In this document: positions 5,078 to 10,760 of the stretch, in pieces
Layout: each line of letters opens with the position of its first letter
Position numbering within the stretch: the first letter of the stretch is position 1
Origin: Candidatus Altimarinota bacterium
GTDB taxonomy: Bacteria > Patescibacteriota > Gracilibacteria > GCA-2401425 > JAJOLG01
DNA: 13,248 nt
Direction of reading: 5' to 3'
NCBI GenBank assembly: GCA_021129445.1
Contig: JAJOLG010000038.1
Location: forward strand, 1 to 13,248
The notes under the pieces: generated by a model
Told to the model about the DNA's origin: nothing
What the model saw: the letters and a program-made list of their open reading frames with translations, nothing else
Databases searched by the model: none
Translations under genes and position numbers: made by a program

Positions 5078-6549
<1,472 letters not shown>

Positions 6550-8275: not shown

Positions 8276-8962
8276 ATGAACAAACTTTACAAAAAATTAG
8301 AGAATTTTACGACTTCGAGTGCGATTAAAATTGAAAATTCAGATCCGCAATTTTTGAGTTTAAAAAAACTTTTTAATGAAATTAAAAATAAAAAATTTTT
8401 TTTACCTTTGATAATCGCAAATTCTTTAATTTGTTATCAGTTATCGTGAAAATGAGAAAATTATTGGGAAGAATTCGCAGTTTTTTTCTGAAAAAATCCA
8501 GTTGATGAAAAAAATTTTTTAGAAGCATTTGAGAAATTTTTGAATTGATGCAAAAATAACAGAAGATTGCTAAAAATAAAATTTTTCAGATTGAAAAAAT
8601 TTTTTCCATTTTTAAAAAAATTTTCTGAGCAAGAAAAATTTTTTTATGACAATTTAGAAATTTTTTTGGAAGAAATTGCAAAAATTATGTGTCAAAAAAA
8701 ATCTGCAAAAACCATTGTTTTTGCGGTAAAAATGTTTTGATACTGATGAAGAATTTTTTTTGGAGAAGAAAAAATTTTTCCAAAAAACATAAAAATTCCG
8801 ATTGATTCTAGATTGGAAAAAATTTTTGAAAAATACTGAAAAAATTACAAAAACTCAAAAAATTTTTTTGAAAATTTGAGTGAAAAATTACAAATCCCAG
8901 AATTGCATTTAGATGCGATTTTGTGGGTGAATTTTAAGGAAATTATAAAAATAACAAAATAA
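8276..8962 (+). CDS. Archaeal-type 8-oxoguanine DNA glycosylase/lyase, AGOG family (UGA read as Gly)
   Basis: AGOG enzymes excise 8-oxoguanine and cleave the AP site; they form a helix-hairpin-helix family first described in archaea. The frame is 228 residues. N-terminal helices carry LPLIIANSLICYQLSGKGENYWEEF (split over 43-67), as in the family. KTIVFAVKM supplies a Lys at 145, and IPIDSRL an Asp at 177. Their 32-residue spacing equals that of the catalytic Lys140 and Asp172 I recall for Pyrobaculum AGOG. Eight of nine glycines are TGA, so the gene is fully adapted to this code. The start ATG is the first after the divergent intergenic region; no Shine-Dalgarno. With nth nearby, the cell has two glycosylases for oxidised bases. 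Family call is from motifs, not a search. Confidence 0.85.
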
Positions 8963-8969
8963 AAAATTA

Positions 8970-8997
8970 TTGACTTAATAAAAAAAAATTTTATATT
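8970..8997 (+). promoter_or_regulatory. Putative promoter for the 9127 gene (TTGACT-N16-TATATT)
   Basis: TTGACT (8970-8975), 16 bp, then TATATT (8992-8997) lies just after the AGOG stop. Transcription from about 9005 would give a leader of about 120 nt before 9127, containing the small ORF at 9055-9084. A perfect TATAAT also sits at 9032-9037 but lacks a -35 at the right distance. Confidence 0.5.
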
Positions 8998-9084: not shown

Positions 9085-9126
9085 CTTGTTAATAAAAAAA
9101 CAAATTAAAAACAATGGAGAAAAAAC

Positions 9127-9684
9127 ATGAACGATACAATTACTTATAATCCCAAATTTGGAGCAAAGGTGTTAATGAACTGGTTTTTTGCCGGTCAACA
9201 ACAATTATTTAAGGAAATTTATCTTGATAAAATTTCTAAAAAAGAAAACGAGGTTAATGAAATAATCAAAAAAGTTTATATTGAAATTAGAAAAGAATTT
9301 CCTGATTTTAATTCATATGAATTAAAAGAGCATCAAGGTGCATATTCAGACTTATCTTATCAAGATGTTGTGTTAAATATGAAAAAAGCTTTTAAAATTC
9401 AAACAAATATTTTTATTGATATTTTATTAAATAATAAAGTAGATGAAAAATTCATAGCCCTGCTTAAAAGCTTACATTTTTGTACTCATATGTCTACAAA
9501 ATCGTCTAGCATATATTATGCAGCTATGAAAGAAAAATATTTAAAATTTATTCAATATAATAATATCAATATTGACTTTATAGAATTTAATAATTTAAAA
9601 GATATTTATTCTGAAAATGCAAAATTTTTGATGAATGATGGGTATTATTATGCCTGTGAAGAAGAACAATTATTTGATATCTAA
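9127..9684 (+). CDS. Unrecognised 185-residue protein without UGA glycines
   Basis: I do not recognise this protein. It is 185 residues, predicted soluble and mainly helical, with no signal peptide or membrane segment. Lys, Tyr, Phe and Asn are frequent. Points that may help place it are an N-terminal YNPKFGAKVLMNWFFAGQQQ (7-26), a mid-protein KEHQGAYSDLSYQDVV (67-82), and LHFCTHMSTKSSS (116-128). A GGAG (9116-9119) lies 7 bp before the ATG, so the start is firm. All four glycines use GGN (GGA, GGT, GGT, GGG). In nth and the AGOG gene 16 of 19 use TGA. The frame is intact under either code and ends in TAA. Together these suggest recent arrival from a standard-code donor, though four glycines is a small sample. 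It has its own promoter and a strong 3' hairpin, so it is a single unit. Confidence 0.85.
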   Translation: MNDTITYNPKFGAKVLMNWFFAGQQQLFKEIYLDKISKKENEVNEIIKKVYIEIRKEFPDFNSYELKEHQGAYSDLSYQDVVLNMKKAFKIQTNIFIDILLNNKVDEKFIALLKSLHFCTHMSTKSSSIYYAAMKEKYLKFIQYNNINIDFIEFNNLKDIYSENAKFLMNDGYYYACEEEQLFDI

Positions 9685-9752: not shown

Positions 9753-9781
9753 AACCGTTATTACATAAAGTAATAACGGTT
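9753..9781 (+). terminator. Strong hairpin after the 9127 gene
   Basis: AACCGTTATTAC pairs perfectly with GTAATAACGGTT (12 bp) over a 5-nt loop ATAAA, followed by ATTTTT. It is the most stable-looking hairpin in the AT-rich part and probably ends the 9127 transcript. The T-tract is short. Confidence 0.7.
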
Positions 9782-9992: not shown

Positions 9993-10040
9993 TATAAAAA
10001 AATAAACACCTTTCACTTTAACTTGCAAAAGATGTTTATT
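9993..10040 (-). terminator. Terminator of trmB
   Basis: Arms 10001-10013 and 10028-10040 form a 13-bp stem with a 14-nt loop. On the minus-strand transcript all positions pair, one as U-G. The plus-strand version would have a mismatch there, which supports minus-strand use. A T-rich run follows (10000-9994). It lies 67 bp beyond the trmB stop. Confidence 0.7.
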
Positions 10041-10106: not shown

Positions 10107-10760
10107 TTATTTTTTCTCAAAAACCAACTCAAAAATTTTCTTCCCCTGAGCAATCCATTTTTCCTCAAATTCTGTGCAAATATAATCATCAGACTCAACA
10201 TCTTGCTCAGCATAAACATCTTTTGAATGCGAAATTTCACGAAAAAGATTTTTTTTGAAAAAAAATGAAACCCTCGTAAAATAAAAATATTCAAAATCGT
10301 CAGTTTTAATAAAAATTTTTCATCAAGATTTTAATTTTTTGTAAACCAATTCAATTGTTTCCTGCTGAAAAAACCTCAATTTCCAAGATTTTTTGTCGGT
10401 GCAAGCATCCGGAAAATTCATATAAATTTTTTCAATCGATTCATCGCCACATTTTTCCAAAAAAATTTTCGCATCTCATCAAACAAAAGAAAAATTTTTT
10501 GCATCAGGATTTAAAATTTCTGTTTTTTGCCGAGCATTTATCAACCTATCCTTTCTCAAATCACATCAAACACAAAATAAATCCGGATTTTTTTTCACAA
10601 GATTAGAAAAAAATTTTCATTTTCCGGTTCAAATTTCAAGTAAAATTTTTTTATTTTGTTCCAAAAAATTTTTATTTTCCTGAAAAAAATTTTCTGGTGT
10701 AAAACAAAAATTTTTGTCATTATCAAATTTTTCAAAATGTTTTGTTTTTGGTCTTCACAT
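10107..10760 (-). CDS. trmB: tRNA (guanine-N7)-methyltransferase (UGA read as Gly)
   Basis: TrmB uses S-adenosylmethionine to make m7G46 in tRNA variable loops. The frame is 217 residues, typical for the family. The SAM-binding motif I is EIGTGKGKF (42-50), with an acidic residue in GCDLRKDR at the end of strand 2. FVGGDAKIFL is the next SAM-site segment. The signature NFPD begins at 115. TEFEEKWIAQGKKIFELVFE (196-215) is the family C-terminal motif. The usual P-D-P-W-x-K-x-R-H after NFPD is changed to A-C-T-D-K-K-S-W-K-L-R, an unusual form at a substrate-contact loop. The start ATG is followed at once by TGA (Gly), a clear case where the standard code gives a one-residue product. No Shine-Dalgarno; terminator at 9993-10040. 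Confidence 0.92.

Follow-up and report, generated by a model that had tools for sequence, protein, structure and literature searches.

A Shine-Dalgarno-led Orphan Gene Free of TGA Glycine Codons in a UGA-Glycine Genome of the Gracilibacteria

Results

Structure of the Locus

The window, a stretch of 13,248 nucleotides, is the entire contig C19 of the Candidatus Altimarinota bacterium assembly. Besides the 16S rRNA gene, it encodes products that we take from their translations to be IF2, seryl-tRNA synthetase, an endonuclease-III-like protein, YchF, and DnaK. The open reading frame (ORF) studied here fills the gap between two native genes, the AGOG N-glycosylase/DNA lyase gene and a convergent gene for a TrmB-like methyltransferase (Table 1). 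This gap measures 1,144 bases, whereas native gaps have a median of 68 bases and reach 557 at the 99th percentile. There is no integrase near the ORF, and neither neighbor is a phage gene. Repeats, a target duplication, or insertion ends were sought around the gap and none was convincing, and a DNA search of the gap gave only short AT-rich matches. In the one other genome of the order, TrmB was not found, and that genome offers no AGOG-trmB empty site for comparison.

Table 1. Features of the ORF locus and the other TGA-free sequences (positions without a contig label refer to the window)
Feature	Position	Strand	Remarks
16S rRNA gene	5079..6549	-	Intact anti-Shine-Dalgarno; 3' end ...GGATCACCTCCCTT
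AGOG N-glycosylase/DNA lyase, left neighbor, native	8276..8962	+	Pfam PF09171, E 3e-54; 8/9 glycines TGA
Promoter-like TTGACT-16-TATATT	8970..8997	+	AT-rich stretch, no better than chance
Shine-Dalgarno-like GGAG	9116..9119	+	~7 bases upstream of the ATG; ORF upstream sequence AAAAACAATGGAGAAAAAAC
Orphan ORF	9127..9684	+	ATG at 9127, TAA ending at 9684; 185 amino acids
Terminator-like hairpin	9753..9781	+	12 pairs, then ATTTTT; 68 nt past the stop codon
Terminator-like hairpin of the TrmB-like gene	10001..10040	-	Right side of the ORF gap
TrmB-like methyltransferase, right neighbor, convergent, native	10107..10760	-	Pfam PF02390, E 2e-31; 8/11 glycines TGA
Lipoprotein-like gene, contig C31	L043:8469-9296		0/23 glycines TGA; Shine-Dalgarno AAGGAGG
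Histidyl-tRNA synthetase-like remnant, contig C53	L065:4258-4506	-	83 codons; 0/6 glycines TGA

The original prediction gave the ORF its own promoter and a strong 3' hairpin. The promoter could not be upheld, as the search returned 13 promoter-like sites where 11.9 are expected. The hairpin downstream of the stop codon is genuine (fold z -4.3). As a mark of foreign DNA it was rejected, because native genes carry such stems too: stems of at least 10 pairs follow 12% of them, including dnaK in the window. The hairpin of the TrmB-like gene is likely the right limit of the foreign stretch.

Genetic Code of the Genome

The assembly comprises 673 kb in 77 contigs, with a completeness of 94.8% and a GC content of 24.3%. 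Genes were called on all contigs with a simple codon-model caller (not Prodigal); contigs below 3 kb consist of N letters and were left out of the gene counts. Five contigs (L033, L072, L074, L076, and L078, corresponding to C21, C60, C62, C64, and C66) use the standard code, have a GC content of 30-34%, and are contamination of a bin that otherwise uses code 25. They were left out of the native reference set, which consists of the 577 genes on the code-25 contigs. The HSP90 found for the genome sits on one of the five contaminant contigs. Another side observation is a standard-code gene cluster at L033:357-12304. It shows a weak match to MotA/ExbB, and some of its proteins look by eye like tubulin and trypsin; the cluster might serve the contaminating organism as a defense or conflict system.

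No prfB was detected in the genome by a search that was positive in 10 of 14 control genomes, and its absence is consistent with the reading of UGA as glycine. A tRNA-Gly(TCC) is present. ARAGORN reported two tRNA-Trp(CCA) genes (L016:12830-12904 on the minus strand and L020:1944-2019 on the plus strand) and, despite the reassignment, no tRNA with the anticodon TCA in the readable contigs. The Gly-UCA tRNA may have been overlooked by ARAGORN or may lie outside the readable contigs. TGA accounts for only 17 of 42 glycine codons (P 3.5e-12) in a frame cut by a contig end at L017:3-830 (minus strand, C5). This frame seems to encode a series of four ATP synthase c-subunit hairpins in tandem, and it adjoins an ATP synthase a-subunit-like gene at L017:871-1701.

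Avoidance of TGA in the ORF

As originally claimed, the frame is intact in the standard code: translation tables 11 and 25 yield the identical protein. Its four glycines are encoded by two GGT, one GGA, and one GGG. The other two forward frames contain TGA 6 and 12 times, so that the avoidance is confined to the reading frame. Across the native reference set, 86.6% of glycine codons are TGA. The claim that the neighbors exceed 80% holds on average (the range in the window is 65-92%) but not for YchF (65%) or TrmB (73%). The probability of four non-TGA glycines had been put at well under 1%, and it is indeed 3.2e-4 by the binomial distribution and 1e-3 by a beta-binomial fit that allows for gene-to-gene variation in the TGA share. 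Between 0.006 and 0.025 zero-TGA genes with at least four glycines are expected genome-wide, the upper value by the beta-binomial. Those seen on the code-25 contigs are the ORF, a lipoprotein-like gene on contig C31, and an 83-codon remnant on contig C53. A set of native genes that also avoid TGA, which would have spoken for a native origin, is essentially absent.

Apart from its glycine codons, the ORF resembles native genes in composition. Its GC content is 22.8%, its Markov composition ranks at the 13th percentile among native windows and is not decisive, and its synonymous codon use without glycine falls near the 20th percentile of the native genes. In the comparison with the whole genome the glycine codons set the ORF apart, but the other synonymous codons do not. 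The synonymous codon use without glycine is native-like, too, in at least one gene from the foreign contigs. The glycine content and the coding score of the ORF are low, at the 1.4 and 3.6 percentiles of the genome.

A Shine-Dalgarno Sequence as a Second Mark

The clear Shine-Dalgarno sequence described earlier was verified as a GGAG at the usual spacing. The gene caller had placed the start of the ORF at 9175, and the start at 9127 is favored because of this Shine-Dalgarno sequence. When GGAG, AGGA, GAGG, or a similar motif was counted at positions -16 to -4, such 4-mers were present in only 5 of the 498 genes of the genome that start with ATG (~1%), and they precede intergenic ATGs by chance at a rate of 3%. 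The 16S rRNA keeps the CCTCC anti-Shine-Dalgarno although the genome is nearly without Shine-Dalgarno sites. A scarcity of such sites has been described for Absconditabacteria, which were grouped with organisms that have no conserved CCUCC (PMC10783764); the present genome is also poor in these sites but retains the CCTCC. One gene led by a Shine-Dalgarno sequence, at L022:1150-2250, is rich in TGA and resembles RecF.

Both marks, the absence of TGA and the Shine-Dalgarno sequence, are found on both intact TGA-free genes of the code-25 contigs, and there is no obvious reason why they should coincide in native genes.

Other TGA-free Sequences

The C31 gene is the sole other TGA-free gene of at least 100 codons on the code-25 contigs and one of the five Shine-Dalgarno-positive genes. 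Its sequence looks like that of a secreted lipoprotein. Against 25 mixed genomes, a strong match was obtained in two only, both of them Arcobacter (E 5e-20 and 1e-17). Within the Arcobacteraceae it was matched in 23 of 61 genomes (best E 1e-24), and the five best of these matches are 38-45% identical. The gene runs off the end of its contig, which otherwise carries code-25 genes; either a transfer or, because of this position, a chimera may account for it. It is like the ORF in the lack of TGA glycines, in the Shine-Dalgarno sequence, and in its code-25 surroundings. In contrast to the C31 gene with its Arcobacteraceae relatives, the ORF is without relatives and is bordered left and right by native genes. 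The histidyl-tRNA synthetase-like remnant looks eroded, is out of frame with its surroundings, and may derive from a foreign gene that has decayed.

Search for Relatives of the ORF Protein

Scans of the ORF protein against Pfam, PHROGs, NCBIfam, and PADLOC families and against the PDB gave sub-threshold matches only. The best E-value in PHROGs was 0.046, and no anti-phage defense family of PADLOC was reached up to an E-value of 10. A RAP domain (PF08373) was discarded as a candidate, with 15 bits against a Pfam gathering cut-off of 24.2. By tblastn, no match was found in 50,697 phage records and no relative in plasmids, and none came from four peptide-pattern scans on viral contigs or from a fifth on GTDB contigs. 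No homologue turned up in ~1,500 genomes searched in partly overlapping sets: 145 from the class, 379 from the phylum, 228 from the Arcobacteraceae, 397 from the Campylobacterota, and 391 from the class to which a Tissierellales genome belongs. The best weak match has an E-value of 3e-4 for a single genome, which, found among 379, is expected by chance over hundreds of genomes. Four weak matches were inspected and dismissed as relatives.

Hits mainly in standard-code bacteria or phages, which had been expected under transfer, did not appear in any library or genome set searched. Nor was there a homologue in code-25 genomes with TGA at the same glycines, the finding that would have contradicted transfer. 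The lack of homologues in the class and phylum genomes indicates that the ORF does not belong to the widely conserved native genes. Judged by its sequence, the ORF is an orphan at the reach of the tools used.

Properties of the Predicted Protein

The encoded protein has a mass of 22.1 kDa, a pI of 5.7, and a GRAVY score of -0.39, and no hydrophobic segment is seen by eye. A single-sequence AlphaFold2 model is all-helical and weak, with a mean pLDDT of 59; residues ~12-120 are mostly of moderate confidence and the remainder is low. With this weak model, Foldseek returned nothing below an E-value of 0.4 in either library. Helical-bundle folds (Dps/ferritin-like and the Cse1 bundle) were reached with a best Foldseek E-value of 0.6 and a best VIA Z-score of 7.2, the level expected among unrelated helical bundles. 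The product would probably be a soluble, acidic, mostly helical cytoplasmic protein. As a tentative guess at its function, we favor a role among the accessory cargo of a phage or mobile element, such as defense or counter-defense, over one in metabolism.

Discussion

We consider the ORF a real gene that was probably acquired, with a likelihood of about three in four. Its donor would be low in GC, use the standard code, and initiate translation at Shine-Dalgarno sites; a bacterium that lives nearby or serves as host could be the source, as could a phage whose genes read in both codes. That a transfer took place, that it is recent, and what type of donor was involved are inferred. The lack of TGA codons, the GGAG, the parallel with the C31 gene, the outsized gap, the low glycine content and coding score, and the absence of homologues in the class and phylum argue for acquisition; the tRNA for GGN and the undetected prfB fit it. 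The small number of glycines, the native-like codons and GC content, the lack of a donor homologue and of insertion marks, and the rate at which Shine-Dalgarno-like 4-mers precede intergenic ATGs by chance argue against it. The original prediction of transfer from a standard-code source is supported in part, by the TGA avoidance and by a Shine-Dalgarno sequence in a genome where these are scarce, but not by a homologue in any donor.

The four glycines are few, and their number, together with the native-like GC content and synonymous codon use, would also suit a native gene, either fast-evolving or newborn, in which the GGN glycines and the GGAG of the leader arose by chance. The lack of a homologue anywhere searched is likewise what lineage-specific genes would show, and there are few close genomes to compare, with one other in the order. 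However, a gene of this kind would avoid TGA with a probability of only about one in a thousand, no other intact gene of the code-25 contigs does so except the Arcobacter-like one, and a Shine-Dalgarno sequence leads very few native genes; we regard a native origin as unlikely.

A less probable explanation is an assembly chimera, in which DNA of another organism was joined into the contig and the ORF does not belong to this genome. The contigs are short, the bin contains five standard-code contigs, and the Arcobacter-like C31 gene lies at a contig end, all of which would fit such an event. Yet complete code-25 genes lie on either side of the ORF in the same contig, so that two false joins would be required; the ORF has a lower GC content than the five foreign contigs, and a DNA comparison with them listed no similarity. 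That the frame is not a gene and opened by chance in AT-rich DNA is very improbable, although the missing homologues and the poor structural model could be taken in this sense. When 3 Mb of native intergenic DNA were simulated, no run free of all three stops extended to 185 codons, which indicates that the ORF is coding. The GC content by codon position (0.33/0.18/0.17) is of the coding type, and the Shine-Dalgarno sequence has the right spacing.

For the acquisition that we favor, the following course may be envisaged. The donor would supply the ORF, which would enter the convergent gap between AGOG and trmB as a single-gene cassette. The GGAG can pair with the intact CCUCC of the recipient 16S rRNA. 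The GGN glycines, for which a tRNA-Gly(UCC) is present, and the TAA stop make the ORF readable in both codes. Given this readability and the pairing, the recipient could express it at once, without recoding. Because codon use outside glycine and the GC content are native-like, the donor would have been similarly AT-rich, or the ORF has partly adapted. An Arcobacteraceae partner, as suggested by the C31 gene, is a lead to the donor, though the ORF itself is unmatched in that family.

Phages compatible with code 11 have been described for Gracilibacteria and Absconditabacteria, where integrated prophages used code 25 (PMC10746230); by analogy, a phage route would seem plausible. Those phages are whole genomes, whereas here a single chromosomal gene is found that has no phage genes in its vicinity and matches none of the phages searched. 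Horizontally acquired genes have been reported in Patescibacteria (for example PMC12455944), among them an archaeal-like ATP citrate lyase in a BD1-5 genome (PMC6851277). The trait shared with the present case is that a reduced, probably host-dependent bacterium gains genes of unrelated organisms. The ATP citrate lyase case was built on homology; that of the ORF is built on code use and an initiation signal, with no known homologue.

The ORF is good evidence for gene transfer and not for a new kind of system; it is useful as a genome-specific marker of transfer and otherwise an ordinary orphan. A broader possibility, which we put forward as speculative and rather unlikely, is that a code-25 predator or epibiont repeatedly gains intact standard-code genes from its prey or hosts (Arcobacteraceae for the C31 gene), that these retain GGN glycines and the Shine-Dalgarno sequence, and that the ORF represents an undescribed family gained in this way. 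If this were true, the ORF would stand for an undescribed protein family expressed without recoding, and TGA avoidance with a Shine-Dalgarno sequence would be a marker for transferred genes that is independent of homology. In genomes that have reassigned UGA and are poor in Shine-Dalgarno sites, the two marks combined could flag foreign genes that lack homologues, a task that is otherwise difficult for orphan genes. In the present genome they single out 2 of ~577 genes, one of them with Arcobacteraceae relatives, and genes marked in this way may point to the organisms with which this uncultured, recoded bacterium is in contact.
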